From contig NZ_CP040871.1 of assembly GCF_006337105.1 (NCBI RefSeq), positions 1,674,001-1,738,000 on the forward strand: a stretch of 64,000 bases of DNA, written 5' to 3'. This document shows, piece after piece, positions 1 to 39,165 of this stretch (within the stretch, counting starts at the first letter, position 1; each line of letters starts with the position of its first letter). The stretch comes from Thermomonas aquatica (GTDB taxonomy: Bacteria > Pseudomonadota > Gammaproteobacteria > Xanthomonadales > Xanthomonadaceae). The notes under the pieces were generated by a model. The model was not told the origin of the DNA. It saw nothing but the letters and a program-made list of their open reading frames with translations, and did no database searches. The translations under genes and the position numbers were made by a program.

Positions 1-267
1 GCCATCGGTGCCCCAGTCTTCGGTCATCGGGTCTTCGACCGTCGGCGGGAACTGCAGGTGGAAGCCGCGGCTGGCGAGGTTGGCGCGCACCACCTCGGGG
101 TTTTCCCGGGCCAGCCTGCGTTCCGGAACCAGGTCGACCTCCAGCACGAACTGCAGCGTGCCCAGCTGGGTGCGCAACGGTTCCGGCAGGCCGGCGAAGT
201 CGTCGCGCTTGGCGAGGTAGAGGTAGGTATCGGCCTTTTTCAGGCTCTTGTAGACGTAGGCGAGCAT
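1..267 (-). CDS. YcgL domain protein (3' end beyond window)
   Basis: The reading frame opens at an ATG at 267 and runs off the left edge with no stop, so only the first 89 residues are seen. The N-terminus starts MLAYVYKSLKKADTYLYL and continues with LPEPLRTQLGTLQFVLEV and ENPEVVRANLASRGFHLQFP. These match the small cytosolic YcgL family (DUF709, about 80-100 residues), whose biochemical function is not established. It is co-directional with cydAB downstream but separated by about 90 bases (its start is at 267, cydB stop at 354), so a shared transcript is possible but not shown. Confidence 0.85.
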   Translation of the reverse strand, partial: MLAYVYKSLKKADTYLYLAKRDDFAGLPEPLRTQLGTLQFVLEVDLVPERRLARENPEVVRANLASRGFHLQFPPTVEDPMTEDWGTDG

Positions 268-15414: not shown

Positions 15415-15618
15415 GGCGCCAGCGCGGCTTTTCCCGGTGCGTGGCCCTGGCGAGATCCGGCGATTGCGCCAGCACGATGGGCAGCGCGTCGAACAGCCGG
15501 TTTTGGTGGCGGCGTCCGCCGCGTTGCCGCTCCAGACATCGCCGATGCCGCCGACGTAAGACTGCGCATGGACGCAAGGCGCGACCAGCAGCAGGACGAA
15601 CAGGGCGTGGTTGCACAT
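15349..15618 (-). pseudogene. Possible small exported protein, apparently frameshifted
   Basis: From the ATG at 15618 the first 40 codons look coding: third positions are almost all G/C and the product begins with a good signal peptide (MCNHALFVLLLVAPCVHAQ) followed by SYVGGIGDVWSGNAADAATK. Around 15500 coding character jumps to another frame (LFDALPIVLAQSPDLARA), while the original frame reads Cys/Arg-rich nonsense to 15349 and runs over the kinase 3' end. Either a frameshifted remnant or a sequencing indel. It is the last member of the overlapping lipoprotein cluster. Function unknown. Confidence 0.35.
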
Positions 15619-15649
15619 GCAATGTGTGCGTGGCTGCGGACGACGACGC

Positions 15650-15886
15650 TCATTGCAGCTTGAACGCGCCGGTCAGGGTCACCCCGTAGATCGCGCCGTC
15701 GCGGCCGATCCGCCAGGCCGGGCCTTGCGATCCGTCGCGGCGCGGATCGGGCTCGATGCCCCAGCCGCCGTCGAAATCCAGGTTGTGGCCGGGCAGCGTG
15801 GTCGTCCACAGCAGCGTGCCGACGGTGCAGGCGGAAGCACAAACGAAGCGCCTGGGCTTGCGGCTTGGTGCGCCCCGGAGGTTCAT
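15650..15886 (-). CDS. Small hypothetical protein of the lipoprotein cluster
   Basis: 78 residues from the ATG at 15886, which overlaps the stop of the upstream lipoprotein gene (CAATGA). Codon use is strongly GC3-biased, supporting translation. The N-terminus has basic residues (SRKPRR) before a weakly hydrophobic stretch, so export is possible but not clear; the C-terminus reads DGAIYGVTLTGAFKLQ. No family recognised. The stop is again embedded in CAATGA. It could be the surviving part of a longer protein. Confidence 0.5.
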   Translation of the reverse strand: MNLRGAPSRKPRRFVCASACTVGTLLWTTTLPGHNLDFDGGWGIEPDPRRDGSQGPAWRIGRDGAIYGVTLTGAFKLQ

Positions 15887-16479
15887 TGCGCGCACGGCTG
15901 CGTTGGCGTCACGGTGAACTTCTCGCTACCGGAGGTCGTGCGCGAAATCGTTCCTGCCGTCGTGGTGCCGCCGCCTTCGGTGGTCATCGTGCCGGGCTTG
16001 TCCTGGCCGTCGGCGAACTCGATGTGGTAGCGCCCGCCGGCCTTCCAGCTCAGGCCGGGGATGTTCGGCGTGCGCACGAACTTGTAGGTGCCGTCCGCGC
16101 CGCCGCTGAACTCGACGCCGAACAGCTTGCCGTCCAGCACGAACTTCTGCCCGATGTCGCATACGACCTGGTCGACCGGATCGCCGCTGCCGCCGGCGAA
16201 GCGGTAGGCGCGGGGCGCGGCTGTCGTCGCCATGCCGCCGCAACGCGGCAGCTTGTCTTGTTCGTTCGCGCGCGGATCGTCGCTGCACTTGCGCTGCTCC
16301 TGCCGCGCTGCGGCGGCTGGCGCTGGCGCGGCGACGGGATGCGGCGAAGTCGCGCCGGGCTGCCCATCGCGTTTCGACGAGCACGCCGCCAATCCGAGCG
16401 CCGCGCTCGCAACGACCGCGCATGTCGAAAGCGCCAGCCGCCTGCGCATCAGCGGTTCCGATTCGTTGCCGGCATTCAT
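15883..16479 (-). CDS. Putative lipoprotein, paralogue of the upstream one
   Basis: 198 residues starting MNAGNESEPLMRRR, with a hydrophobic segment ending in the lipobox LAAC, so a lipid-anchored exported protein is expected. After an Ala/Pro linker comes a motif shared with the upstream gene product (RQE, Cys, Asp, PRA, then PRCGG), followed by a beta-rich C-terminal domain with Cys residues that could form disulfides. The start is fixed by the ATGA overlap with the upstream stop. An internal ATG 10 codons later (MRRRLALS) is an alternative start. Function unknown. Confidence 0.75.
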   Translation of the reverse strand: MNAGNESEPLMRRRLALSTCAVVASAALGLAACSSKRDGQPGATSPHPVAAPAPAAAARQEQRKCSDDPRANEQDKLPRCGGMATTAAPRAYRFAGGSGDPVDQVVCDIGQKFVLDGKLFGVEFSGGADGTYKFVRTPNIPGLSWKAGGRYHIEFADGQDKPGTMTTEGGGTTTAGTISRTTSGSEKFTVTPTQPCAQ

Positions 16480-17744: not shown

Positions 17745-19146
<1,402 letters not shown>

Positions 19147-19154
<8 letters not shown>

Positions 19155-20199
19155 CGACGGATTCCTGTTCGCCGTGCGCTTCGTACTGGATCGGCAGCAG
19201 CAGGGTGAACACGGTGTGGCCGGGGCGCGACCGATACGCCAGCGAGCCGCGATGCTCGCGCGCCACCTGCTGCGCGAGCGCGAGGCCAAGCCCGGTGCCG
19301 TCGGCGCGGCCGCTCACCAGCGGCAGGAACACCTGCTCGGCCAGTTCCGGCGGGATGCCGTGGCCGTCGTCGACGATCTCCAGCCGCAACGCCAGCGCAT
19401 GCGCGGCGTCGAAGATGCGCGCGCCGTGCTCGACCCGGGTGCGCAGCTGCACCGTGCCGGCGCCGGCTTCGATCGCATTGCGCACCAGGTTCCACAGCGC
19501 CTGGGTCAGGCGATCCGCATCGCCCGGGAATTCCGGCAACGACGGGTCGTAATCGCGCACCAGCCTGGTCGCCCAACCGGCGTCGCTTTCCGCCAGCCGC
19601 AGCACGCGCTCCAGCACCGCATGGATGTTGACCGGCTCGAACGCGCGCGGCGGCGCCGGCGACAGCAGGCGGTCGACCAGCGCGGCCAGTCGCTCCACTT
19701 CGGCCTCGATCAGGCCGGTCAGCTCACGGGTGTCGCCATCGCCGCGCCGCGCCAGCAATTGCGCCGCGCCCTTGATCCCGGCCAACGGATTGCGCAGCTC
19801 GTGGGCGAGGCCTTTCAGCGAGGCGCTCAGCGCGGACGGCAGCAGCTGCGCCGGATCCTCGCCGGGGAATTCGTCGACCACATGCGCTTCCAGCCAGAAA
19901 CCGCCGGCGTCGCGCGGGGCCAGCCACAGGTCGGCGAAGCGCAGCTCGTCGCTGCCGGGGAAGGCCAGCGCCACCCGGCGCAGGCGCAGCGACGCCTCCA
20001 GCGACGGCTGCAACGCCCGCGCCAGCGCCGTCGTCTCGCGCTCCAGCGCGGCCGCCGGCGTCCCCAGCAGGCGCCGGCGGCCGACCCCGAGCCAGCGTCC
20101 GGCGGCCTGGTTGGCCTCGACGATCGCGCCCGCCGCGTCCAGCCGCAGCAACGGGGTGACCAGCTCGTCGAGGGCGTCGGCGGGGGAATCGAGGGGCAT
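19147..20199 (-). CDS. ntrB: Nitrogen sensor histidine kinase NtrB
   Basis: 350 residues, soluble. A PAS-like domain at the N-terminus (about residues 10-70), the phospho-accepting His in LAHELRNPLAGIKG at about residue 133, N-box LVRNAIEAG, G1 DDGHGIPPE and G2 GTGLGLALA are all present. It phosphorylates NtrC under nitrogen limitation and, with PII protein, dephosphorylates it under nitrogen excess; the PII partner is probably GlnK at 44278. First gene of ntrBC. A perfect NtrC-type palindrome overlaps its start codon, which suggests autoregulation. Confidence 0.95.
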
Positions 20200-20217: not shown

Positions 20218-20285
20218 ATCCGGCGAGGCGGCATCGGGGCGTGGTCGCGATCGTTCCGACGAACGGTCGTCGCCGCTATTGCCTG

Positions 20286-20318
20286 ATTACATGTAATGAA
20301 ATAAGTTCATTGCATGAA
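20286..20318 (+). promoter_or_regulatory. Two palindromes at the yjfI start (possible operator)
   Basis: ATTACATGTAAT (20286-20297) is a perfect 12-base palindrome, and TTCAT-TGC-ATGAA (20306-20318) is an inverted repeat that includes the yjfI start codon. This AT-rich stretch stands out in a GC-rich region immediately before the seven-gene operon and is a plausible binding site for its regulator. No clear sigma-54 element was found here. Confidence 0.45.
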
Positions 20319-20940
20319 ATCTGTCCTGCAACGCTCTTCGACGCAGCACGTGCGTGCGTTCCGCGAGCGCATGCGGGAGCAGGGGCTGGTCAAGAAGGAC
20401 GTCTGGATCCGCCCGGAGCACGCGGCCGAACTGGCCGCGATCGAAAAGGCGATGCGCGAGGCGCGCGACCCGGCCGAGTCCAACCCGTCCGAGGACGTCA
20501 AGGGCCCGGGCTGGACCCTGCCGACCATCCGCCATGCGCTGGCGCAGACCAGCGCGGTACGCGACGGATCGATCGAGCTGGAAACCATCGAAGGCGCCGA
20601 ACCCAGCCTGCACCTGGTGATGCGCGAGTACGGCGAGCTGTCGATCTTCATCGCGGTCGGCGGCGAGCAGATCATCGTCGAGGCCTTCCTGTGGCCGCTG
20701 GCGCAGGTGCGCGATCCGGCCGCGTTCAACGCGCACGTGCTGGCCACCCACAAGCTGCTGCCGCTGTCGACCATCGCCATCCAGTCGATCGCCGGGGTGC
20801 CGAGCTACACCATGTTCGGTTCGCTGGACACCCATTCCAGCCTCGCCAACCTGATGTTCGAGATCGAGACGCTGGCGGAGAACGTGATCCAGGCCAGCGA
20901 TGCCTATGCGCCCTACCTCGACGCGGGGACGCACGGATGA
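20314..20940 (+). CDS. yjfI: YjfI family protein (DUF2170)
   Basis: 208 residues, soluble. An N-terminal basic helical part (MKSVLQRSSTQHVRAFRERM, KKDVWIRPEH) precedes the DUF2170 domain (about residues 65-200; LPTIRHALAQT, LVMREYGELSIFIAVGGEQI). In E. coli yjfI stands directly before yjfJ, a PspA paralogue; the same order is seen here. First gene of a seven-gene operon; its stop overlaps the pspA start (ATGA). Function is unknown, but the steady pairing with PspA-like proteins suggests a role in envelope stress. Alternative starts further downstream are unlikely given the conserved N-terminus. Confidence 0.88.
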   Translation: MKSVLQRSSTQHVRAFRERMREQGLVKKDVWIRPEHAAELAAIEKAMREARDPAESNPSEDVKGPGWTLPTIRHALAQTSAVRDGSIELETIEGAEPSLHLVMREYGELSIFIAVGGEQIIVEAFLWPLAQVRDPAAFNAHVLATHKLLPLSTIAIQSIAGVPSYTMFGSLDTHSSLANLMFEIETLAENVIQASDAYAPYLDAGTHG

Positions 20941-21632
20941 CATTCCCCTGGCGCAAATTGTTCCAGTCGATCCAGGACGATATCGAGGGCCTCGGCGATG
21001 CCGTGTTCGGCGACCGCGCCGAGCGCCTGCTGGACGACGAGATCCGCGGCGTGGACGAACTGCTGCACAACACGCGCAACGACCATGCGGCGGCGAAGGC
21101 GCGGCGGATCGATGCGCAGCAGCATGCGCAACGGCTGAAGGCGGAGATCCGCGCGGCCGAAGCCGAGGTCGAAGCGCAACTGAAGCGCCGCCGCAGCACC
21201 GCCGCGCGCGATGCCGCCGGCGACGTGGTGCGCCTGCAATCGCAGCTTGCCGAGATGCAGGCCGACGCCACCGAGATGGACGCGCAGGAGGCGAAGTTCG
21301 CCCAGCTGCAGTCGCAGCTGGAGCATCGCCTGCGCCGGCTCAAGCACCAGCTCGACACCCATCGCGCAACCGCCAGCCTGCAGCGCGCGCAGGCCGCGGT
21401 GGCGCGCCGGCAACCGGGCGATGCGCCCTATCCGGAACCCGCGCCGGCATCGGCGCAGCGCATGCGCCGCCCCGCCCGCGCCGGCGCGCATGCAACGCAG
21501 GCGGATGCCGCGCGTCCGGATACCGCCCGCAACGACGATCCGGTGGCCGAGGTGATCGACCGCATCGCCCGCCGCATCAAGCCCAAGCCTTCCACCAGCA
21601 CGCCCAGCACCGAACAGGCCCGCCGCCGATGA
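20937..21632 (+). CDS. PspA/IM30 (ESCRT-III-like) protein, YjfJ type
   Basis: 231 residues. It starts with an amphipathic helix (MTFPWRKLFQSIQDDIEGLG) and continues as a long coiled coil (residues 45-165, rich in Ala/Arg/Glu/Gln), the build of PspA/Vipp1/IM30 proteins that assemble on the inner leaflet of the cytoplasmic membrane. The C-terminal about 60 residues are low-complexity Pro/Ala/Arg with a short helix DPVAEVIDRIARRIK. Both ends overlap neighbours (ATGA at 20937 and 21629), showing tight translational coupling with yjfI and yqiJ. No PspF, PspB or PspC is encoded in the window. Confidence 0.82.
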   Translation: MTFPWRKLFQSIQDDIEGLGDAVFGDRAERLLDDEIRGVDELLHNTRNDHAAAKARRIDAQQHAQRLKAEIRAAEAEVEAQLKRRRSTAARDAAGDVVRLQSQLAEMQADATEMDAQEAKFAQLQSQLEHRLRRLKHQLDTHRATASLQRAQAAVARRQPGDAPYPEPAPASAQRMRRPARAGAHATQADAARPDTARNDDPVAEVIDRIARRIKPKPSTSTPSTEQARRR

Positions 21633-22291
21633 CCGAGTTCTATACCACCGCGCTGACCTTCCCCACGTTGCTGTACAGCATCCTGCTGGCGTTCTGCGTG
21701 GTGTACTGGCTGCTGGCCGCGACCGGACTGGTGGACAACGACACCATCCACGGCCTGCTGCACCACCACGACGGCCTCGACGGCATCCACACGCACCACC
21801 ACCACGACGGCGCGGCCGACAACGCCGGCATGATCGCCAGGCTCGGCCTGTCCGGCGTGCCGTTCATGCTGATCCTCAGCGTGCTGGTGTTCTTCGGCTG
21901 GCTGATCACCTATTTCGCGCAGTTGCTGGTCCTGCAATACCTGCCGGATTCGCTGCGCGTGCTCGCCGGCATCGGCGTGCTGGTCGCGGCCCTGCTGCCC
22001 GGGCTGGTGCTGACCTCGCTGCTGCTGCGCCCGGTCGCCAGGTTGATCATGAAGCTGCGCCCGCCGGTGCCGCCGTCGGTGCTCGGCAAGGCCGGCAACG
22101 TGATCTCGCCGCAGGTCACCGAAACCGAAGGCCGCGCCGAATTCGCCGACGGCGGCGCCGGCCTGATCCTGCAGGTGCGCGCCCCGCCGGGCACCACCTT
22201 CCATCGCGGCGACCGCGTGGTGCTGCTGTCCTTCGACGAACAGTCCCACGCCTACGCCGTGATCGCCGAATCCGAGTTCCTTTCCCGCTGA
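21629..22291 (+). CDS. yqiJ: YqiJ/NfeD-like membrane protein with His-rich loop
   Basis: 220 residues. Three hydrophobic segments (about 12-33, 74-96 and 107-128) are followed by a C-terminal OB-fold-like domain (GKAGNVISPQVTETEGRAEF, then FHRGDRVVLLSFDEQ) as in the NfeD/YqiJ partners of flotillins. Between the first two helices, residues 41-59 hold nine histidines (HGLLHHHDGL, THHHHD), suggestive of metal binding. It precedes yqiK as in E. coli yqiJ-yqiK. Start overlaps the pspA stop. Confidence 0.85.
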   Translation: MTEFYTTALTFPTLLYSILLAFCVVYWLLAATGLVDNDTIHGLLHHHDGLDGIHTHHHHDGAADNAGMIARLGLSGVPFMLILSVLVFFGWLITYFAQLLVLQYLPDSLRVLAGIGVLVAALLPGLVLTSLLLRPVARLIMKLRPPVPPSVLGKAGNVISPQVTETEGRAEFADGGAGLILQVRAPPGTTFHRGDRVVLLSFDEQSHAYAVIAESEFLSR

Positions 22292-22321
22292 GCACCACCG
22301 AGTTTCGCCAAGGAGTAGTCC

Positions 22322-24292
22322 ATGTCCATGTCCCTCATCGCGCCGTTCCTCATCGGCCTCGCCGTCCTGCTGGTGCTGATCTTCGGCCTGATCGGCCTGT
22401 TCAAGGCCTTCTACCGCAAGGTCGAGCAGGGCACCGCCCTGATCGTCAACGACATGAGCACCACGCCGAAGGTGCATTTCACCGGCGCGCTGATCATCCC
22501 GGTGCTCTACAAGGCCGAGGAAATGCAGATCAGCCTGATCAACCTGGAGATCGACCGCCGCGGCAAGGAAGGCCTGATCTGCAAGGACAACATGCGCGCC
22601 GACATCCGCGTCAACTTCTACCTGCGCGTGAATGAAAAGGCGGAAGACGTGCTGAAGGTGGCGAAGACCGTCGGCGCCGCCCGCGCCTCCGACAAGAACG
22701 CGGTCGATGCGCTGTTCAACGCCAAGTTCTCCGAGGCGCTGAAGACCGTCGGCAAGCGCTTCGACTTCGTCGACCTGTTCGAGAAGCGCCAGGAATTCCG
22801 CGACGCCATCGTCGACGTGATCGGCAAGGACCTCAACGGCTACGTGCTGGAGGACGTGGCGATCGACTACCTGGAGCAGACCAAGAAGGCCGAGCTCGAC
22901 CCCAACAACATCATGGACGCCGAGGGCATCCGCAAGATCACCGAGCTGACCGCCGCGCAGAACATCCAGACCAACATCTTCGAGCAGGACGAGAAGCTGC
23001 GCATCACCGAGAAGAACGTGAGCGCGCGCGAAGCCCTGCTGGCGATGGAACGCCAGCAGGCCGAGGCCGAGGCGCGGCAGAAGCGCGAGATCGCGGTGAT
23101 CACCGCGCGCGAACAGGCCGAGGCGGCCAAGGTCGGCGAAGAGCAGCGCCTGATCTCCGAGCGCGCGCGCCTGGAGGCGGAGGAGCAGATCAAGATCCGC
23201 GAGCAGGAGCAGCTGCGCCAGGTGGAAGTGGCCGAGCAGAACCGCCGCCGCGCGGTGGCCATCGAACTGGAGCGCGTCGAGCGCGCCGCGCAGATGGAGA
23301 AGGTCACCACCGACAAGGAAGTGCAGCTGCAGGGCGTGGAGCGCGACAAGGCGGTCGAGGCCGGCAAGATGGAAGTGGCCAACACCATCCGCGAACGCAC
23401 CCTGGTCGAGCAGACCGTCGCCGTCGCCCAGGAGAAGATCAAGGAAACCCGCGAGGTCTCCGAGGCCGATCGCGCCAAGCAGGTCACCGTGCTCAACGCC
23501 GAGGCCGATGCGCAGCAGGTGCTGGTCAAGGAAGTGAAGGCGGCCGAGGCGGCGGAAACCGCGGCCAAGCACCGCGCCAACGAGATGACCCTGCTGGCCG
23601 AGGCCGAGCTGGTCGCCGCCGGCAAGCAGGCCGAGGCCAAGAAGATGCTGGCCGAAGGCGTGCGCGCGGAAACCGCCGCACCCGGCCTGGCCGAAGCGCA
23701 GGTGCAGGAAGCCACCGCCGCCGCGATCGAGAAGGTCGGCGTGGCCGAAGCGCGCGTGATCGAAGCCAAGGCCGACGCCAACTACAAGCAGGGCAACGCC
23801 GATGCGCGCGTGCTGGCCGAGAAGCTGGAAGCCGAAGCCTCCGGCGCCGGCAAGATGGGCCAGGCCAAGGCCGATGCCACCAAGGCGATGGGCGAGGCCG
23901 AGGCCGACGCGATCGGCAAGAAGATGTCGGCCGAGGCGGAGGGCCTGACCGGCAAGTTCGAGGCGATGGGCAAGATGTCGGCCGACGCGCGTGCGCACGA
24001 AGAATTCCGCATGCAGCTGGAAGCCGCGCTCAAGCAGGCGCTGGCCTCGCTCGACGCCGGCAAGGAAGTCTCGCGCGAGAACGCCGAGGTGCTGGCCACC
24101 GCGCTGCAGAACGCCAACATCGAACTGATCGGCGGCGACGGCGGCGTGTTCGATGCGCTGACCAAGGGCGTGTCGATCGGCAAGGCGCTGGACGGCATCA
24201 CCGGCCAGAGCCAGGTGCTGCAGCAGTTGCTCGGCAAGCTGGCCGGGATCGCGCCGGCCAAGCTGCCGGCGCCGGACGACGCCGAAGCCTGA
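22322..24292 (+). CDS. yqiK: Flotillin family protein YqiK
   Basis: 656 residues. One N-terminal membrane helix (about 5-28), an SPFH/Band-7 domain (about 30-230; VEQGTALIVND, IDVIGKDLNGYVLEDVAIDYL) and a long Ala/Glu-rich coiled coil (about 240-600), ending in a flotillin-type tail. Flotillins oligomerise in membrane microdomains and are often encoded beside NfeD-like proteins, here yqiJ 30 bases upstream. An AGGAG-type site (AAGGAGTAGTCC) lies before ATG 22322; a second ATG at 22328 is an alternative. Part of the same operon as pspA and telA. Confidence 0.93.
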   Translation: MSMSLIAPFLIGLAVLLVLIFGLIGLFKAFYRKVEQGTALIVNDMSTTPKVHFTGALIIPVLYKAEEMQISLINLEIDRRGKEGLICKDNMRADIRVNFYLRVNEKAEDVLKVAKTVGAARASDKNAVDALFNAKFSEALKTVGKRFDFVDLFEKRQEFRDAIVDVIGKDLNGYVLEDVAIDYLEQTKKAELDPNNIMDAEGIRKITELTAAQNIQTNIFEQDEKLRITEKNVSAREALLAMERQQAEAEARQKREIAVITAREQAEAAKVGEEQRLISERARLEAEEQIKIREQEQLRQVEVAEQNRRRAVAIELERVERAAQMEKVTTDKEVQLQGVERDKAVEAGKMEVANTIRERTLVEQTVAVAQEKIKETREVSEADRAKQVTVLNAEADAQQVLVKEVKAAEAAETAAKHRANEMTLLAEAELVAAGKQAEAKKMLAEGVRAETAAPGLAEAQVQEATAAAIEKVGVAEARVIEAKADANYKQGNADARVLAEKLEAEASGAGKMGQAKADATKAMGEAEADAIGKKMSAEAEGLTGKFEAMGKMSADARAHEEFRMQLEAALKQALASLDAGKEVSRENAEVLATALQNANIELIGGDGGVFDALTKGVSIGKALDGITGQSQVLQQLLGKLAGIAPAKLPAPDDAEA

Positions 24293-24298
24293 GCCCGA

Positions 24299-24325
24299 GA
24301 TGCCCCGGCGTGATGCCGGGGCATC
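24299..24325 (+). terminator. Strong hairpin inside the operon
   Basis: GATGCCCCGGC (24299-24309) pairs perfectly with GCCGGGGCATC (24315-24325) around a 5-base loop, seven bases after the yqiK stop. There is no T-tract, so it may be a partial terminator or an mRNA-stabilising processing element that sets a lower level for the downstream ATPase. The gap to the next gene is 87 bases, the largest in the operon. Confidence 0.55.
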
Positions 24326-24379
24326 CCGACGCACTCGATCGCCGAACCACGCATCACTGATGCACGCACGGAACGCACG

Positions 24380-27300
24380 ATGACCAATCCCGCCAACGTC
24401 GCCGCCAACAACGCGGACACCAGCACCAACGACGCCGTCGCCCAGGGCGGCGCCTACGAGGTGCTGCGCAAGCGCTTGGCGGAGCAGGGCGTGCGCCTGC
24501 GCGGCATCGCCGATGCGCTCAACGCGCAACGCCTGCAGGAATTCGGCGACTCCAAAATGGAGATCGCCGGGCGCTTCCGCATCCGCAGCGAGCAGAACGC
24601 GGTCGGCCGCGACATCGTCCAGGTCGGCGACCTGCTGCTGTTCGGCTACAACGTGTTCCTCGGCCTGAAGTCGACCACCGCGGTCAGCGACGTGTTCGGC
24701 CTGTACCGGCTGGTCGAGACCGCGGAAGGCTACGACGTCACCCCGGTCGATCCGGCGCACAGCTTCCTCGCCGATCCGGCCTTCGTCCGCGACTTCACCG
24801 AGCTGTACGCGTACTACAAGGAAGCGCGCCTGCTGCAGCTGCTGGTCAAGGACAGCAAGCTGCTGGCCGCGTTCCAGATCGGCGCCGAGGCCAAGGACGT
24901 GCGCGTGTTCCGCTGGAACCTGTCCAGCACCGGCGAAGTCGGCTACATCGACGCGCGCGGCGAGCGCGACATCAGCCTGCCGCCGCCGTTCGACTTCGAA
25001 TGGATCCGCGCGGGCAAGGACATGGAGGTCAGCGGCCGTTTCCCGCACCTCAACATCCTCGACACCCTGTTCGTCGAGACCACCGGCGGCGACCTCACGA
25101 TCAAGGCCGAGAACAACACCGAGACCGGCGTCGGCGTGTACAGCGAGCCGGTCGAGGACGGCACCCAGTCGCTGGACGACGCGCAGTTCTACTTCGCCAA
25201 GGTCGGCTCGCTGGTGCTGCTGAAGGTGCTGCCCTACCGCGAGACCGGCTGGCGCGGGCTCGTGTTCAACACCCTGACCGGCAAGGTCACCCGCCTCGAC
25301 GCCATCGTCCAGGCCTGCATCCAGCTGCCGGAAGACCACGGCATCATCTTCCCCGGCGGCTATTACCTGCAGAACGGCGAACACAAGGCGTTCGACACCG
25401 CCATCGCCGGCATGCAGTACAAGCGCGCGATCCGCTCGCCGAACGGCGAGGACGTGATGTACGTGTTCTACGAGCGCGCCTCCGGCATGGCCGCGCTGCT
25501 GGTCTACAACATGATCCAGCGCCGGCTGCTGCCGCCGACCCTGGCGCACGGCTACGCGCGCCTGGCCGACGGCCGCATGGTGCTGTTCAACGCCGAGAAC
25601 GACGACCCGACCCGCGTCCACCACATGCAGGTGTGGAAGACGCCGTTCGTGTCCGAGGAATTCGCCGCCAGCCGGCCGCCGAGCACCACGTATCTCGGCC
25701 GCATCGGCAATGCCGAACTGGTGCGCGCGATTTCCAACCTGTACGACCTCGCCCGCGACATCGAGCGCGAGGACGTGTCGGCATCGCGCTACGAATTGCT
25801 GGCGCACGCGACCCGGCGCCTGTTCGACGCCCACCACTGGATCGACGACGAGCACAGCGGCGGGCTCGCCACCCTGCTGCGGCAGGTCGCCGCCACCGGC
25901 GAGTCGGTGCTGGACGAATTCCAGAAGGTGCTGGAGATCCGCCGCCAGGCCGACGAGGCCTTGCGCCAGGCGCAGTCCGACCACCGCGCGCTGCTCGGCC
26001 GCCTGCAGCCCGAGGCCTGGTCGCAGGTGCAGGAGTACGTCGACGCGCTGAACGCGATCTCCGCATTGCGCGGCCGCCTGCTCACCATCCGCGACTACCG
26101 CTACATCGATACCGCCGCGATCGACGCGATGGCGCAGTCGCTGTCCGCCGCGCACGACGGCGTCGGCGCCGCGACCGGCGCGTTCCTGTCCTCGGCGAAG
26201 GCGCTGGCCCCGTTCGAACAGCGCCTCGCCGCGCTCGACGAACAGGCCGGCAAGGCGACCACCGCGAAGCAGCTCGCCGAGCACATCGCCGGCATGCAGG
26301 CGATGTCCGCCGACCTCGACATGCTGTCGGAGCTGATGGCCTCGCTGAAGGTCGACGACGCGACCCAACGCACGCAGGTCGTCGAAGCGCTGTCAGGCCT
26401 GTATGCACGCCTCAACCAGGCCAAGGCGCGCGCCGACCTGCGCCGCAAGACCCTGGGGTCGGCCGAATCGGTGGCCCAGTTCGGCGCGCAGTTCACCCTG
26501 TTCGCGCAGTCGATCGCCAGTGCCCTGGGCATGGCCAACACGCCGGAAAAGGCCGACGAGCAGCTGTCGCGGCTGATGGTGCAGCTGGAGGAACTGGAGA
26601 GCCAGTTCGGCGAACACGAACAATTCCTCGGCGACATCCTGTCCAAGCGCGAGGAATTGCTGGAGGCGTTCGAATCCCACAAGCAGGCCCTGCTCGACGA
26701 GCGCCAGCGCAAGGCGCAGTCGGTGTTCGACGCCGCCCAGCGCATCCTCGAAGGCCTCGGCCGCCGCACTGAACGCTTCGCCACCCCCGACGAGCTCAAC
26801 GCCTTCTTCGCCGGCGACGCGCTGATCCTCAAGCTGCGCGAATTGGCGGAGCGCCTGCGCGAGCTGAAGGACTCGGTCAAGGCCGACGACGTCGAGGCGC
26901 GGATCAAGTCCGCGCGCGACCAGGCGGTGCGCGCCCTGCGCGACCGCAGCGAGCTGTTCGAGGATGGCGGCAACGTCATCAAGCTGGGGCCGCGCCACCG
27001 CTTCAGCGTCAATACCCAGGCGCTCGACCTCACCCTGTTGCCGCGCGGCGACCACCTGGCCGTGCACCTGACCGGTACCGATTTCATGGAGCCGCTGCAC
27101 GAGCCCGCGCTGGACGAACTGCGGCCGTACTGGGCGGTGGCGCTGGAGTCCGAATCGCCGACGCTCTATCGCGGCGAATACCTCGCCGGGCAGTTGTTGC
27201 AGGACGCCGCCGCCGGCCGCGAGGGGCTGTCGACCGATGCGCTGCAACGCGCCGCGCTGGACAGCGATGCGCTGGGCAAGCTGGTGCGCGACTATGCCGC

Positions 27301-29710
27301 GCCGCGCTACCGCGACGGCTACGAGAAAGGCATCCACGACTTCGATGCGGCCAAGCTGCTGCAATTGCTGCTGTCGCTGCAGCGCGGCGCCGGCCCGCTG
27401 ATCCATCATCCGGCCTCGCGTGCGCTGGCGGTGTCGTACTGGGCTTCGCTGGAGGCGCCTGCGCGCGGCGCGTGGCTGGACCGCTTGCGCACCGCGCGGG
27501 CGATCGACGCGCTCTCGCCCGCGGGCACCGCGGTCGTCGCCGCGACCGCCGAATTGACCGCGGCCATCGATGCCCATCTGCGCGACACCGCCTTGCCGCT
27601 GGCCGCGGCGCGCCCGGCCACCGCCGCCGCCTTCCTGGTCGACTGTGCGCAGGGCGCGGCCATGCCGTTGCGCTTCACCGCCTATGCGCAGGCACTGGTC
27701 GAGGCGCTGGCGGCGAAACTCGCCGGCGACAGCGGCCGCGTGCTGCAAGCGGCGATGGCGCATTTGCAGGATCGGCCCGGCGCCGCATGGGCCTTGGCGC
27801 AACAGGCGTTCGCCGCGCTCGCCGCGCAAGCGGAACTGGCCGGCAACGCCGGCTACATCGACGAAGCGGTCGCGTTGTACCTGCACGGCAGGCAGCTCGA
27901 CCACGCGATCGAACGCGTCACCCTGCAGGGCAGCGTCGATGGCCTGCTCGGCACCCATCCGCGCATCGAAAACGGGCGCATGGCGCTGTCGATCGAGGAC
28001 TTCCTCGCCCGCCTGGAAGAACACCAACGCGCATTCGTGCCGGCGTGGCAGCGTTTCCAGAAACTGCGCGGCGAAGTCGTGCAGCGCGAACGCGAGGCGA
28101 TGCGCCTGTCCGAGTTCAAGGCGCGGCCGCTGACCAGCTTCGTGCGCAACAAGCTGATCAACGACGTCTACCTGCCGGTGATCGGCGACAACCTCGCCAA
28201 GCAGATGGGCACCGTCGGCGAGGACAAGCGCAGCGACCTGATGGGCCTGCTGATGATGATTTCGCCACCGGGCTACGGCAAGACCACGCTGATGGAATAC
28301 GTGGCGCACCGCCTGGGCCTGGTGTTCATGAAGGTCAACGGCCCCGCGCTCGGCCACGACGTGCGTTCGCTGGATCCGGCGCAGGCGCCGGACGCGACCT
28401 CGCGGCAGGAACTGGAGAAGCTCAACCTCGGCCTGGAGATGGGCAGCAACGTGATGCTGTACGTCGACGACATCCAGCACACCCATCCCGAATTCCTGCA
28501 GAAGTTCATCTCGCTGTGCGACGGCACCCGCCGCATCGAGGGCGTCTGGCGCGGCAAGACCAAGACCTACGACATGCGCGGCCGGAAGTTCGCGGTGGTG
28601 ATGGCCGGCAACCCGTACACCGAGTCCGGCGAGGTGTTCAAGATCCCGGACATGCTGGCCAACCGCGCCGACATCTACAACCTGGGCGACGTGCTCGGCG
28701 GCATGGAGGACGCGTTCCTGCTCAGCTACATCGAGAACAGCCTGACCTCCAACCCGGTGCTGGCGCCGATGGCCACCCGCGACATGGCCGACCTCTACCT
28801 GCTGGTCGAGAAGGCGCGCGGCAAGGACGTCTCCACCAATGCGCTGAAGCACGGCTACAGCGGCGCCGAGGTCAACGAGATCGTGGCGGTGCTGCAACGC
28901 CTCATGCAGGTGCGCGATGTGGTGTATCGCATCAACCAGCAGTACATCGCCAGCGCCGCGCAGGCGGACAAGTACCGGGTGGAACCGCCGTTCAAGCTGC
29001 AGGGCAGCTACCGCAACATGAACAAGCTGGCCGAGAAACTCTCGCCGGTGATGAACGATGCCGAAGTGCAGCAGTTGATCGGCGACCACTACCTCGGCGA
29101 GTCGCAATTGCTCACCACCGGCGCCGAGGAGAACCTGCTCAAGCTCGCCGAGCTGCGCGGCACGATGACCCCGCCGCAGCAGGCGCGCTGGACGCAGATC
29201 AAGGCCGACTTCCTGCGCAACAAGGCGATGGGCGCGGACGATGCCGATGTCGGCGGGCGCATGGTCGCGCAACTGGCGGACATCGCCGGCAACCTCGATG
29301 CGCTGCGTGCGCCGCCGATGGAGAAACCGGAAACGGCGCCGTGGCCGGCGGTGCTGGATGCCTTGCGTTCGCTGCAAGCGAAACCGCAAGCCGCGGTTCC
29401 GCAACAGGCCGCCCCGGATATCGAAGCGCTGCTCGCGGCGATGCAGGGCCAGCAGGCGCCGGTGATCGAGATCCTGCGCGCCACCCTGGCCCGCCAGGAC
29501 ATGCTCAACAGCGCCCTGCTGGAACTGGCCGACGTGCTCGCGCGGGCGCCCACGGCGGCGGCGCCCGCCATGCCGGGCGGCGAAGGCGATGCGCAATCCC
29601 GCCGCAACCCAGCGCGCGTGCGCACGCAACGCGAGATCGCCTTCGAACGCGAACTCGAGAAGCTGCGCTTCAAGCACGAGTCGGACGCGAAGGACGACAA
29701 GACCGAATGA
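24380..29710 (+). CDS. Giant AAA+ ATPase (database name 'DNA repair ATPase')
   Basis: 1776 residues, no signal or membrane segment. The first about 520 residues are beta-rich (a repeat-like FxxA/YxxV pattern that may be a propeller). About 540-930 is helical and coiled-coil. After an Ala-rich middle the AAA+ domain lies at about 1240-1480: Walker A GYGKT at 1298-1302, Walker B-like YVDDIQ with Asp1363-Asp1364, and an AGNP sensor-1-like element near 1410 as in MoxR/McrB-type ATPases. Homologues are usually named 'DNA repair ATPase' without, to my knowledge, direct evidence. Operon context with PspA, flotillin and TelA argues for an envelope or stress role. Its stop overlaps the next start. Confidence 0.85.
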   Translation: MTNPANVAANNADTSTNDAVAQGGAYEVLRKRLAEQGVRLRGIADALNAQRLQEFGDSKMEIAGRFRIRSEQNAVGRDIVQVGDLLLFGYNVFLGLKSTTAVSDVFGLYRLVETAEGYDVTPVDPAHSFLADPAFVRDFTELYAYYKEARLLQLLVKDSKLLAAFQIGAEAKDVRVFRWNLSSTGEVGYIDARGERDISLPPPFDFEWIRAGKDMEVSGRFPHLNILDTLFVETTGGDLTIKAENNTETGVGVYSEPVEDGTQSLDDAQFYFAKVGSLVLLKVLPYRETGWRGLVFNTLTGKVTRLDAIVQACIQLPEDHGIIFPGGYYLQNGEHKAFDTAIAGMQYKRAIRSPNGEDVMYVFYERASGMAALLVYNMIQRRLLPPTLAHGYARLADGRMVLFNAENDDPTRVHHMQVWKTPFVSEEFAASRPPSTTYLGRIGNAELVRAISNLYDLARDIEREDVSASRYELLAHATRRLFDAHHWIDDEHSGGLATLLRQVAATGESVLDEFQKVLEIRRQADEALRQAQSDHRALLGRLQPEAWSQVQEYVDALNAISALRGRLLTIRDYRYIDTAAIDAMAQSLSAAHDGVGAATGAFLSSAKALAPFEQRLAALDEQAGKATTAKQLAEHIAGMQAMSADLDMLSELMASLKVDDATQRTQVVEALSGLYARLNQAKARADLRRKTLGSAESVAQFGAQFTLFAQSIASALGMANTPEKADEQLSRLMVQLEELESQFGEHEQFLGDILSKREELLEAFESHKQALLDERQRKAQSVFDAAQRILEGLGRRTERFATPDELNAFFAGDALILKLRELAERLRELKDSVKADDVEARIKSARDQAVRALRDRSELFEDGGNVIKLGPRHRFSVNTQALDLTLLPRGDHLAVHLTGTDFMEPLHEPALDELRPYWAVALESESPTLYRGEYLAGQLLQDAAAGREGLSTDALQRAALDSDALGKLVRDYAAPRYRDGYEKGIHDFDAAKLLQLLLSLQRGAGPLIHHPASRALAVSYWASLEAPARGAWLDRLRTARAIDALSPAGTAVVAATAELTAAIDAHLRDTALPLAAARPATAAAFLVDCAQGAAMPLRFTAYAQALVEALAAKLAGDSGRVLQAAMAHLQDRPGAAWALAQQAFAALAAQAELAGNAGYIDEAVALYLHGRQLDHAIERVTLQGSVDGLLGTHPRIENGRMALSIEDFLARLEEHQRAFVPAWQRFQKLRGEVVQREREAMRLSEFKARPLTSFVRNKLINDVYLPVIGDNLAKQMGTVGEDKRSDLMGLLMMISPPGYGKTTLMEYVAHRLGLVFMKVNGPALGHDVRSLDPAQAPDATSRQELEKLNLGLEMGSNVMLYVDDIQHTHPEFLQKFISLCDGTRRIEGVWRGKTKTYDMRGRKFAVVMAGNPYTESGEVFKIPDMLANRADIYNLGDVLGGMEDAFLLSYIENSLTSNPVLAPMATRDMADLYLLVEKARGKDVSTNALKHGYSGAEVNEIVAVLQRLMQVRDVVYRINQQYIASAAQADKYRVEPPFKLQGSYRNMNKLAEKLSPVMNDAEVQQLIGDHYLGESQLLTTGAEENLLKLAELRGTMTPPQQARWTQIKADFLRNKAMGADDADVGGRMVAQLADIAGNLDALRAPPMEKPETAPWPAVLDALRSLQAKPQAAVPQQAAPDIEALLAAMQGQQAPVIEILRATLARQDMLNSALLELADVLARAPTAAAPAMPGGEGDAQSRRNPARVRTQREIAFERELEKLRFKHESDAKDDKTE

Positions 29711-30420
29711 CGCGCGATGCCGTCCCGCTCGACCTCGATGCGATCGCCGGCTTCGGCGACGGCATCGTGCGCGAGGCGCGGCATGCCGATGCGATCGCCG
29801 CGCTGGATGGCAGCCCGGTGCCGGCCTTGCTGGAAGCGGTGCAAGCCGTGCAGGCGGTGCTGCTGTCGGCGAACCCGCGGGCGTTGCGCGCGCGCGTCGG
29901 CTGGCTCGGCCGCTTGCTCGGGCGCGACCTGGTGCTGGATGCCGAAGGTCGCGTCCTGCGCGAACGCCTGCGCCAGCTGGTCCACGACGCCGACGCGAAA
30001 CTGGCCGCGTTCGCGCGCTTCGACGCGGCCATCGCCAGCCACGAACAGCGCCTGCTGGCCGCGATCGACGCGCTCGCCAGCGCCATCGCCGAACTCGATG
30101 CCGCCAGCGCGGCCGCGCAACCCGCAGCGCTCGCCGATGCCATCGAACGCCGCCGCCAGCACCTGCTGGTGCTGCAGCAGGCCTGGCGCATCGGCGCCTC
30201 GCAACTGGCAATGACCCGGCTCAACCACCGCCAGCTGGCGCAGCGCATCGCGCCGATGCTGCCGCTGGTGCAGGTCCTGCTCGAACAGGAGCGCGGTCTG
30301 CAGGCATCGCGCCGCGATGCCGATGCGCTGCAATCCGCCAACCGCGCGCTGGAAGCGGCGAATGCCGCGCTGGCCGGTTACAGTCCCCCACATCCCGCAG
30401 CACCGGAGCACGCCCCATGA
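29707..30420 (+). CDS. Hypothetical coiled-coil protein of the PspA/TelA operon
   Basis: 237 residues, Ala/Leu/Arg-rich and almost entirely helical (coiled coil about residues 75-215, ending QSANRALEAANAALAG), with no signal peptide. No family recognised. It is held between the AAA+ ATPase and telA by ATGA overlaps on both sides (29707 and 30417), so its dosage is coupled to both and it may be an adaptor between them. A membrane segment is absent; location is inferred as cytosolic. Confidence 0.75.
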   Translation: MTRDAVPLDLDAIAGFGDGIVREARHADAIAALDGSPVPALLEAVQAVQAVLLSANPRALRARVGWLGRLLGRDLVLDAEGRVLRERLRQLVHDADAKLAAFARFDAAIASHEQRLLAAIDALASAIAELDAASAAAQPAALADAIERRRQHLLVLQQAWRIGASQLAMTRLNHRQLAQRIAPMLPLVQVLLEQERGLQASRRDADALQSANRALEAANAALAGYSPPHPAAPEHAP

Positions 30421-31514
30421 CTTCGCAGAACGAACCCACCCTGTTGCCGGCGGCGCTCAGCGAACAGTCGCTCGCCGACCTTGGCCTGAGCACGCAGGAC
30501 ATCGACGCGATCAACCAAGCCAGCAAGGCGCTGCAGGACATCGCCCCCGGCAACCTCAGCGGCTACGGCCGCGACGCCACCAGCAAGACCAGCGCGTTCT
30601 CGGTGCAGCTGCTGGACAAGGTGCGCAACGCCGACCTCGATACCTCCGGCGACAAGCTCGGCGAGGTGGTGCGGATCGCGCGCAGCCTCAACCTCGACAG
30701 CTTCGCCGAACGCAGCAAGCTGCCGATCCTCGGCCCGCTGATCGACAAGCTGAAGGCGACCAAGGGCGAGCTGGTGCAGAAGTACAGCTCGACCAACAAG
30801 CAGATCGACCAGCTGATGGGCGACGTGTCGAAGACCCAGCAGGTGCAGCAGCAGCGCGTGCGCGAGTACGACCAGATGCATGCGCTGGTGCTGGACGAAC
30901 GCCGCGAACTCGGCATCCACGTCGCCGCCGGCCGGGTCCGCATCGCCGAGCTGGAACAGGAGCTGGCCGCGCTGGCCGGGATGGACGACCCCGCTTCGCG
31001 CACCCGCCGCAGCGAGCTCGACACCGCGCTGCGCCTGATCGACAAGCGCGTGTCCGACCTGCAGGTGCTGCAGCACGCCGCCGAGCAGACCCTGCCGATG
31101 ATCCGCCTGATCCAGGCCAACGCGATCCAGCTGATCGAGAAGTTCGCCGCGGTGCGCGACATCACCATCCCGATGTGGCGCAACCAGTTCGCGATCCAGC
31201 TGTCGCTGGCCGACCAGCGCAACGCCGTCGACCTCGCCAACGCCATCGACGATGCCAGCAACGAGCTGATGCGCAAGAACGCCGAACTGGTGCACGGCAC
31301 CTCGGTCGGTACCGCGCGCGCCAACCAGCGCTCGGTGATCGACATCGAGACCCTGCGCACGGTCAACGAGAGCCTGATCCGCACCGTCGAGGAAGTCCGC
31401 GAGATCCACCGCGAGGGCATGGCCAAGCGCAAGCAGCTGGGCGGCGAACTGGTGCAGATGCGCGACGATCTGGCCAAGCGGCTGGCGCTGCCGACGTCCG
31501 CACCGGCCGCCTGA
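30417..31514 (+). CDS. telA: Toxic anion resistance protein TelA family
   Basis: 365 residues, alpha-helical. The TelA domain (PF05816) is visible from about residue 55: LLDKVRNADLDTSGDKLGEVVRIARSL, LPILGPLIDK, and IPMWRNQFAIQLSL near residue 255, followed by NESLIRTVEEVREIHREG. TelA proteins were named for tellurite/toxic-anion resistance, but many lie in stress or membrane gene sets with ter or Psp-like genes. Last gene of the seven-gene operon; convergent with the sulfotransferase gene 14 bases away. Confidence 0.92.
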   Translation: MTSQNEPTLLPAALSEQSLADLGLSTQDIDAINQASKALQDIAPGNLSGYGRDATSKTSAFSVQLLDKVRNADLDTSGDKLGEVVRIARSLNLDSFAERSKLPILGPLIDKLKATKGELVQKYSSTNKQIDQLMGDVSKTQQVQQQRVREYDQMHALVLDERRELGIHVAAGRVRIAELEQELAALAGMDDPASRTRRSELDTALRLIDKRVSDLQVLQHAAEQTLPMIRLIQANAIQLIEKFAAVRDITIPMWRNQFAIQLSLADQRNAVDLANAIDDASNELMRKNAELVHGTSVGTARANQRSVIDIETLRTVNESLIRTVEEVREIHREGMAKRKQLGGELVQMRDDLAKRLALPTSAPAA

Positions 31515-31527
31515 AGCGGCCCGCGAC

Positions 31528-32325
31528 TCAGGCGGCGGTTTCGCCGCTCGCGCGCAGCGCGGCCTGCAGCTCGGGGTAATTCAGCACCAGCGCGTCCGGC
31601 GGCGCGCGCACGATCCTTTCGGTCGCCACCCGCACCGGCGCCGGCGCCAGCCCGAGGAAGGCGAATACGCGGTCGCACTGCGCCTGCGGATCGGCGGCCA
31701 GCTCTTCGTAGACGACCCGCAGCGAAGGATGGCCGGCGAAGGCGGCTTCGAATTCGCGTTCCCGGCGGCGGGTTTCGGCGATGTCGCGCAGGCAGTCGTC
31801 GATGTCGACCGCGAACGGCGCGACTTCGGGCAGGATCCCGCCCGCCGGGACGTTGGTGACCCCGGTCTGCTGCAGCACCACCCGGTGCGAGAGGTAGCGG
31901 CGCAGCAGGTCCCGGCGCCGCAGGAACACGATGCGCAAGTCCCGGTCGGCCTCGACCAGGGCGCGGATGCCGCTCCACTGCGGCTGCACCAGCTCGTCGA
32001 ACTTGAGCTTGAAGCCGGCCGCGGCCGCGCCGTGCGCGTCCAGGAAGCGGCGCATGCTTTCCCCGGGATGCTCGAAGCGCGCGCGCTGCAGCGCCTCGAA
32101 CGCAGCCGCGTCGTCCTCGCATGCGCGCGCCAACGGACCGTCCAGGCCGACCATGCGATCGCCCCAGACCTCGCCGTGCACGAGCAGCGCGGGATGGCTG
32201 CGCAAGGTGCGCACCAGCATCGTGCTGCCGGTGCGCGCGGCGCAGGCGATCATGAAACGGACGGGAGGCTGCGGCATCGGCCCGGCCTGCGCGGGAACAA
32301 GGATGGCCGGCAAGGATAGGGTCAT
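31528..32325 (-). CDS. Sulfotransferase family protein
   Basis: 265 residues. The CAARTGSTMLVRTLRSHP element near residue 27 is the 5'-PAPS phosphosulfate-binding loop of the sulfotransferase/Stf0-like fold; IVFLRRRDLLRRYLSHR in the middle is the 3'-phosphate-binding type of motif. It probably transfers sulfate from PAPS to an unknown acceptor. Start MTLSLPAIL at 32325 overlaps the amidase stop (ATGA), though an internal ATG before PQPPVRFMIACAAR is possible and would remove about 16 residues. No signal peptide; likely cytosolic. Confidence 0.82.
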   Translation of the reverse strand: MTLSLPAILVPAQAGPMPQPPVRFMIACAARTGSTMLVRTLRSHPALLVHGEVWGDRMVGLDGPLARACEDDAAAFEALQRARFEHPGESMRRFLDAHGAAAAGFKLKFDELVQPQWSGIRALVEADRDLRIVFLRRRDLLRRYLSHRVVLQQTGVTNVPAGGILPEVAPFAVDIDDCLRDIAETRRREREFEAAFAGHPSLRVVYEELAADPQAQCDRVFAFLGLAPAPVRVATERIVRAPPDALVLNYPELQAALRASGETAA

Positions 32326-33080
32326 CGTGCCGGCGGCGCGATCACCATCGCCGCCAAGGCATGCAGGATGCGCAGGTCTTCGCCATCGAACGCCGCATCC
32401 GGATCCTCGCCATCGTCGCGGCCGCGGTAATGGCGATGGAAGGCGCGCACCGCGGCGGCGCGATCCTTCAGCGGATAGCCGATCGCCGCCATCGCCAGCC
32501 ACGGGTCGAAGCCCGCCGGCGGGTCGACCAGCGATTCCGGCCGCGGCCAGAGGCCGAACCCGGCATCGGCCAGGCGCTGCCAGGGGAACAGCGAACCCGG
32601 GTCGCGCTTGCGGGTCGGCGCCAGGTCGGCATGGCCGATCACCTGCGTCCTCGGGATGTGCAGCCGCGAACACAGGTCTTCCAGCAGGCGCAGCAGCGCG
32701 GCGATCTGCGCCTCCGTATAGGGCTCGCCCACGTCGTTGTCGATCTCGATGCCGATCGACGCATCGTTGACGTCGGTGATCGTGCCCCAGGAACCGCCGC
32801 CGGCATGCCAGGCGCGATCGCCATCGGCCACCAGCTGGTAGATCCGGCCGTCGTCGCCGATCAGGTAGTGCGCGCTGACCTTGCCCTTGCTGTTGGCGGT
32901 GCGCAGCGTGTGCAGGCTCTCCTGCGCGGAACCCTGCTCGGTCGCGTGGACCACGATCAGCACCGGCCGCCGCGCCTCGAAGTTCGGCGACGGCACCCAT
33001 TCGGCGAGCGGGTTGCGCTGCGGGGCGTGCGCGCAGGCGGCGAGCAGGGACAGCGACAGGACGGCGACGAAGGTGCGCAT
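32322..33080 (-). CDS. N-acetylmuramoyl-L-alanine amidase lipoprotein (AmiD-like)
   Basis: 252 residues. A lipoprotein signal (MRTFVAVLSLSLLAACA) is followed by an amidase_2 domain: VLIVVHATEQG with the first Zn ligand His, SIGIEIDN, and VIGHADLAPTRKRDPG with the second His and the Asp/Lys region. Expected to cleave the MurNAc-L-Ala bond of peptidoglycan or its turnover products in the periplasm, as AmiD does. Translationally coupled to the sulfotransferase downstream. Divergent from gltB with a 131-base spacer. Confidence 0.9.
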   Translation of the reverse strand: MRTFVAVLSLSLLAACAHAPQRNPLAEWVPSPNFEARRPVLIVVHATEQGSAQESLHTLRTANSKGKVSAHYLIGDDGRIYQLVADGDRAWHAGGGSWGTITDVNDASIGIEIDNDVGEPYTEAQIAALLRLLEDLCSRLHIPRTQVIGHADLAPTRKRDPGSLFPWQRLADAGFGLWPRPESLVDPPAGFDPWLAMAAIGYPLKDRAAAVRAFHRHYRGRDDGEDPDAAFDGEDLRILHALAAMVIAPPAR

Positions 33081-33132
33081 GGCCCGATCTTATCGCCTCC
33101 GTCGTCGACGCCCGTCGCGGCGATTGGTTTCC

Positions 33133-33161
33133 TTCGCAACTACCGACCACAACTCTAAAAT
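33133..33161 (+). promoter_or_regulatory. Candidate sigma-70 promoter for gltBD
   Basis: TTCGCA (33133-33138) and TAAAAT (33156-33161) are separated by 17 bases and lie about 50 bases before the gltB start. The stretch is clearly AT-richer than its surroundings. No NtrC-type TGCAC-N7-GTGCA site was seen nearby. Prediction by eye only. Confidence 0.5.
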
Positions 33162-33211
33162 TTTGTTCTAGGCTCGGGTCATGTTGCAGTGCAGCGAACC
33201 CGGGAACCGCC

Positions 33212-39165
<5,954 letters not shown>

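Follow-up and report, generated by a model that had tools for sequence, protein, structure and literature searches.

A TelA-extended bac-type operon of Thermomonas aquatica with DUF2170 as its probable autorepressor

The window analyzed here is a stretch of 64,000 nucleotides from Thermomonas aquatica (GCF_006337105.1, contig NZ_CP040871.1, positions 1,674,001 to 1,738,000), whose genome is one contig of 3,005,997 bases. Seven open reading frames (ORFs), all on the + strand at 20314-31514, encode DUF2170, PspA-like, YqiJ-like, flotillin-like and AAA+ proteins, a fast-evolving coiled-coil protein (cc) and TelA (Table 1). On balance we judge it likely that this is a bac-type envelope-stress operon extended by TelA, with DUF2170 as autorepressor and PspA as its partner in a switch, and that cc-TelA was gained once, PspA diverging afterwards and being lost in one clade. 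DUF2170 would probably stand here in place of PspF. The genes lay as a reading of the sequence alone (the sequence-only reading) had described them, with ATGA overlaps at 4 of the 6 junctions and gaps of 30 and 87 bases at the remaining two; the overlaps suggest a single transcript. The first five genes follow, on one strand, the order of the operon of Ravi et al. 2024 (PMC11237479) and of bac-type operons, YqiJ and YqiK being placed by the names of relatives only. That the operon is real and recurs was confirmed by this five-gene core in Ravi et al. 2024 and by the related six-gene bac operon of Pseudomonas aeruginosa (bacA-bacF), headed by DUF2170 and a PspA homologue (PMC2587700, PMC10948618), in which reverse transcription PCR across each of the junctions between the six genes yielded a product (PMC10948618).

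In the proposed mechanism, a predicted DNA-binding segment like those of MazE and ribbon-helix-helix proteins, fused at the N-terminus to a CesT-type chaperone domain, would make DUF2170 a repressor. Its targets would be TnWCATGWnA palindromes, which mostly come as a pair spaced by about 23 bases, one member sitting between the -35 and -10 hexamers; once bound there, it would silence its own operon. The chaperone domain would bind PspA, and a change in the state of PspA at a damaged membrane would alter or remove the repressor; such a partner switch could do the job of PspA-PspF without PspF. Judged from their families, YqiJ and the flotillin may form a membrane platform, at which the NorQ/CbbQ-like AAA+ protein would remodel client complexes. 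The operon would have gained the cc-TelA pair in a single event (almost all carriers belong to Lysobacteraceae); later PspA would have diverged, and one descendant clade would have come to lack DUF2170-PspA and, where searched, any PspA. If right, the model would explain, in a form open to direct test, how a widespread PspA system is switched without PspF. It would also mean that the published structure of BacA lacks the likely DNA-reading part, and would link TelA with the PspA-flotillin machinery by way of evolutionary stages testable gene by gene.

Related loci were fetched with the AAA+ protein, and the best 80 of 235 relatives were compared. All seven genes stood in the same order on one strand at 16 of the 80 loci, and this order is not due to chance. 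The first five genes alone, without cc-TelA, were found at 32 loci; cc-TelA without DUF2170-PspA at 24 (L003 and L011 cut upstream at contig ends, L033 broken); and neither pair at 8 (L018 and L053 cut at contig ends). The exact order thus recurred in related genomes but was not universal, and the idea of one machine with fixed membership was not supported as it stood, as DUF2170-PspA and cc-TelA are separable modules and conservation is modular.

Presence of the two pairs was placed on a tree of the AAA+ protein (78 rows, with L018, L033 and L053 dropped; quick tree, one model, no bootstrap). TelA required one change (40 rows, SH-like approximate likelihood ratio test (SH-aLRT) 100) and the DUF2170-PspA pair four, L003 and L011 being uncounted. 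The TelA-only clade (22 rows) was nested inside the seven-gene grade (SH-aLRT 97), and the branch uniting it with the Lysobacter-Luteimonas seven-gene clade had an SH-aLRT of 85. By name, TelA carriers were Lysobacteraceae, apart from some metagenome-assembled genomes and L017; the record of L017 is labelled Bacillus subtilis, its locus groups with Stenotrophomonas on the tree, and it is probably a mislabelled or mixed assembly. The sequences support an evolutionary series, and a direction from five genes to seven to TelA only would be the favored reading, short of proof because the tree is quick, under one model, without bootstrap and midpoint-rooted. Three other genomes of the genus (G637, G666 and G691) gave no DUF3686, PspA, TelA or DUF2170 match, and the operon is accordingly distributed patchily within the genus itself. 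In a sample of 119 genomes of the family TelA was found in 10, and in 8 of these it lay ~6 kb from DUF3686 (positions compared by hand).

The PspA family (PF04012) was then sought genome-wide for each locus class. It was matched in 14 of 14 five-gene genomes (14 of the 32; best match 142-195 bits), in 10 of 10 seven-gene genomes (10 of the 16, L009 among the six left out; a single match each, 25-75 bits, one below the cut-off), in 4 of 5 genomes with neither pair (L041 left out) and in 0 of 20 TelA-only genomes (20 of the 24 loci; L003, L011, L017 and L033 left out). A whole-genome profile search of the window's own genome matched PspA, TelA and DUF2170 only in the operon. Distances were compared as ratios to the AAA+ distance over pairs at 55-75% AAA identity (122 seven-gene and 377 five-gene pairs, which are not independent). 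For PspA the ratio was 2.70 among seven-gene loci and 1.07 among five-gene loci; the corresponding values were 1.52 and 1.32 for DUF2170, 1.51 and 1.80 for YqiJ, and 0.89 and 0.65 for the flotillin. Between seven-gene and TelA-only loci the ratio was 1.18 against 1.01 for TelA and 3.59 against 3.24 for cc. On these comparisons the window looks like an intermediate, with TelA present and PspA diverged. It is conceivable, though we would not call it probable, that cc-TelA displaces PspA and the repressor-chaperone as membrane-acting partner of the flotillin/AAA+ machine, a stepwise replacement that Stenotrophomonas and its relatives would have completed. In that case the job of TelA would resemble that of PspA; TelA has been known for decades, and we know of no mechanism for it.

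An earlier model took the genes as a single machine against envelope stress: the AAA+ ATPase, together with a scaffold, would link the ESCRT-III-like PspA to the flotillin, and TelA would be a further part. Tight packing and the recurrence of the seven-gene order agree with it, as does the listing of pspA, yuaF-yuaG (floT) and xpaC-yaaN together in the sigma-W regulon of B. subtilis (PMC3498285), YaaN being a TelA relative (PMC12791056), but cc-TelA is missing from the 32 five-gene loci, PspA from all the TelA-only genomes searched, and loci that carry TelA have a PspA distance ratio 2.5 times higher. Modeled over residues 1185-1691 only, the AAA+ protein had its nearest fold matches in NorQ/CbbQ (MoxR group), with Vps4 lower, so that the ESCRT-III/Vps4-style ATPase of the sequence-only reading is not favored by the model. 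The coiled-coil protein that this reading took for a scaffold is probably a shortened TelA relative: a cc profile built without TelA rows matched TelA at best at 4.7e-10 (41 proteins, some only at 0.04) and PspA at best at 0.052, and hhalign of cc with TelA gave E 1.7e-4, a probability of just 49 and 63 columns, values to which coiled-coil bias may contribute. Taken together, the single machine appears doubtful to us.

The proposed TelA-extended operon with a DUF2170 autorepressor is, on the side of control, well supported by sequence comparison. Set 1 comprised 49 DUF2170 genes (window and 48 loci), whose proteins all start with one common segment. In the 45 that were aligned, R17, R19, G24, K27, W31, L40, E44 and R48 were invariant, and residues 17-48 thus hold 8 of the 15 invariant residues. 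NCBIfam UrfF ('plasmid repression') matched the segment at 3.5e-4 (20.6 bits, below the cut-off of 100), and the AlphaFold2 model placed a helix at 9-22, an extended stretch and a helix at 34-49 before the CesT fold. PDB 8q8o (BacA) aligned with residues 67-204 only, so the crystallized BacA, of 139 residues (PMC10948618), is without the N-terminal segment; its annotated start would be internal to a longer frame.

Every one of the 49 set 1 genes had a TnWCATGWnA palindrome between -150 and +20 relative to its start, and 36 had two or more. These made 88 sites in all; 500 mononucleotide shuffles gave 0.25 on average and 3 at most. When start-codon sites were excluded, 37 of the 49 genes had their nearest site between -26 and -29, and the spacing between sites (39 spacings) was 22-24 in 28 and 13-14 in 8, seven of the latter in Orbaceae loci. 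Over the 80 loci (1.90 Mb) there were 101 sites, 87 of them in the 48 DUF2170 promoters, and TNWCATGWNA occurs at only 4 places in the window's 3.0 Mb genome, predicted operator 1 among these. The promoter of the window (Table 1) was proposed by eye, and a simple hexamer scorer chose a different -35/-10 pair for it; across set 1 the same scorer, run with no control, placed a CATG between its two top hexamers for 37 of the 49 promoters (the CATG of L077 is not the operator). From the proposed -10, transcription would start at or near the ATG, leaderless. Of the 16 other seven-gene loci, 15 carried TTWCATGAAA or TTWCATGACA at the position of operator 2 (at -4, or at -8/-16 where the estimated start differs); the exception was L025.

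A second possibility is that DUF2170 is only a PspA chaperone and another protein binds the palindromes. Its domain has the CesT/YbjN fold, with crystal 8q8o and other fold matches resembling type III secretion system chaperones and YbjN, and family matches of the N-terminus are weak. Set 2, however, comprised 58 further loci (best 30 of each of two match listings, which may share species with set 1), and the CATG site was present in 28 of the 31 genes with the segment against 0 of the 24 without it (CGCG form in 1, none in 23); of the three genes with a weak segment, one had CATG and two had none. The site is also absent where DUF2170 is absent, with no palindrome upstream of YqiJ in the 29 loci that have YqiJ without DUF2170 (2 stretches incomplete) and no conserved one, by eye, upstream of YqiJ in TelA-only loci, and it shifts with a variant segment in L091, which carries TCACGCGTGA twice. 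In these sequences segment and site go together, and the chaperone-only alternative is accordingly rated as improbable. In L132, the sole CGCG case among the genes lacking the segment, the segment is broken and two TCACGCGTGA sites take the place of CATG ones; a second DUF2170 encoded in the same genome may control this locus. In L085-L089 another N-terminal type (for example ERTRAWREARRQAGFVKIEVW in L085) and other palindromes (for example TTCATGTTACGCGTAACATGAA in L088) were noted by eye, and operator and segment seem to change together there. In Pseudomonas, the genus of G190, CATG palindromes were found at DUF2170 in 27 of 31 sampled loci.

Control by sigma-54, perhaps through the divergent NtrC-like activator, is rated as very unlikely, for although HisKA/HATPase and sigma-54 activator genes adjoin the operon and a -24/-12 site has been proposed for bac (PMC10948618, PMC2587700), the three best sites in the 300 bases upstream scored 7/12 without a GG/GC core (simple consensus scan) and none of the 80 other loci had, in the flanks covered, a relative of the window's NtrB or NtrC at E 1e-10, where a TelA control gave 40 matches. 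The sequence-only reading had been right that PspF, PspB and PspC are missing (none among the seven operon genes, in a Pfam scan of these genes only) and that control differs from the classical Psp system, seemingly through the DUF2170 autorepressor.

The published data on bac fit a repressor-chaperone: levels of BacB-F were up 6.1- to 13.5-fold in a mutant with a transposon in bacA, BacA and BacB are said to interact (called unpublished by the authors), and ExsC is cited as both chaperone and regulator (PMC10948618). Several points weigh against the autorepressor model and the series proposed with it. In the bacA mutant the transposon sits in the first gene (PMC10948618), so the downstream rise could stem from the transposon, and the authors go no further than suggesting negative control by BacA, next to their proposed sigma-54 site. 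MazE-like PF11455 was weak in the window (13.9 bits, below the cut-off of 22) and reached E<=0.1 in only 19 of 45 members (best 0.0037); model confidence in the N-terminus was modest (block means about 50-73), and in a structure comparison this segment had no fold match of its own. The palindrome pattern was derived from set 1 itself, and of the 31 set 2 genes with the segment two had no site in the scanned stretch and one had the CGCG form. Any contact of the AAA+ protein with PspA, flotillin or TelA is hypothetical. The DUF2170-PspA pair is absent also in six tree rows without TelA, so its loss needs no TelA; the midpoint root served for drawing only, and the direction is taken from this root together with the restricted range of TelA hosts in this sample. 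Finally, in recent seven-gene pairs (9) omega was 0.208 for PspA against 0.140 for AAA, which is purifying selection with PspA not fast relative to AAA, and in recent five-gene pairs (25 of 32) 0.121 against 0.057. The seven-gene PspA has therefore changed yet been kept by selection, and a decaying pseudogene is rejected on the omega of 0.208.

Table 1. Features of the operon and its surroundings (positions in the window unless given as residues)
Feature	Position	Strand	Basis
NtrB-like kinase and NtrC-like sigma-54 activator, divergent	17745-20199	-	
19-base palindrome TTGCACTAATTTAGTGCAA	20199-20217		at kinase start
Proposed -35, TTGCCT	20279-20284	+	by eye, analogy with relatives such as L002 (TTGACA-N17-TAAGTT)
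Operator 1 (predicted), TTACATGTAA	20287-20296	+	inside 17-base spacer
Proposed -10, TAAGTT	20302-20307	+	by eye
Operator 2 (predicted), TTGCATGAAA, imperfect	20310-20319	+	over start codon, 23 bases from operator 1; by eye
DUF2170 (BacA-like), 208 aa	20314-20940	+	PF09938, 154.1 bits
DUF2170, MazE-like N-terminal segment	residues ~1-50		
DUF2170, CesT/YbjN-fold chaperone domain	residues 67-202		
PspA/IM30-like, diverged	20937-21632	+	PF04012, 42.9 bits (above cut-off 33.9)
YqiJ-like membrane protein	21629-22291	+	name of close relatives
YqiK/flotillin-like protein	22322-24292	+	names of close relatives
DUF3686-DUF7902-AAA+ protein, 1776 aa	24380-29710	+	DUF3686 632 bits, DUF7902, AAA_5
cc, fast-evolving coiled-coil protein	29707-30420	+	probable shortened TelA relative
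TelA	30417-31514	+	PF05816, 238.6 bits (above cut-off 30)
Sulfotransferase-domain ORF, downstream	31528-33756	-	
Glutamate synthase large subunit, downstream	33212-37699	+	

The YqiJ-like protein was so named because close relatives are named 'YqiJ family protein', and the flotillin-like protein because relatives are named 'uncharacterized membrane protein YqiK' or 'flotillin family protein'. Neither protein of the window had a Pfam match at E 0.1, and a Pfam search of four relatives of each, up to E 1, found neither YqiJ nor Band_7/flotillin; the matches it did give, at 0.15-0.3, were unrelated and due to chance. Close relatives of the YqiJ-like and cc proteins carry Thermomonas names. Against solved structures, sequence searches gave only chance coiled-coil matches for TelA (E 0.21-0.46) and no match for the flotillin-like protein, profile included. 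Homology of PspA with TelA or cc was rejected (profile comparison E 0.3 and 0.063, probability <1), as was a defense system, PADLOC matches being weak and to long coiled-coil proteins (at best 5.8e-05, ATPase with LmuB, and 4.8e-04, PspA with JetC). The palindrome at the kinase start, TTGCACTAATTTAGTGCAA, resembles what we take to be the NtrC box consensus. A second cc-like gene lies directly upstream of DUF2170 in L016 (4665-5351), and a PIN7-domain gene between flotillin and ATPase in L050 (9293-9892).

The five-gene core is not new, as it appears in Ravi et al. 2024 and the bac papers. Ravi et al. 2024 (PMC11237479) describe a DUF2170-type CesT/Tir-PspA with flotillin, YqiJ and the large AAA+ protein, to which they assign a beta-propeller; these are the families of the window's first five genes. 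Their main text nowhere uses 'TelA', 'tellurite' or 'toxic anion'. Both places there that use 'repressor' concern other proteins, and a ribbon-helix-helix factor appears once, as a separate last gene in a different operon type. Among open PMC papers, supplements aside, none mentioned DUF3686, none combined any three of TelA, PspA, Stenotrophomonas, Xanthomonadaceae and YqiK, and three mentioned DUF2170; the DUF2170 repressor reading and the TelA module seem new. The bac operon shares the head of DUF2170 then PspA, but the window ends in cc-TelA, where L040 (Pseudomonas alcaligenes), used for the comparison, has rhomboid and PLD-like genes after the ATPase (15229-16470), as does L048 (Pragia; 14904-16474). 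Products of bacC-bacF were assigned provisionally from gene order and relatives rather than by comparison with P. aeruginosa DNA. In B. subtilis the PspA, flotillin, YuaF and TelA families are co-regulated, but from separate operons and by an extracytoplasmic function sigma factor, and DUF2170 and DUF3686 had no match in the Bacillus control genome. In Listeria, TelA has been linked to nisin and tellurite tolerance (PMC12791056, citing Collins 2010). The classical Psp system (PspF-PspABC) resembles the operon of the window in its central PspA and in control tied to its own operon, and differs in that the seven genes include no PspF, PspB or PspC and that the proposed regulator would be a repressor, not a sigma-54 activator.

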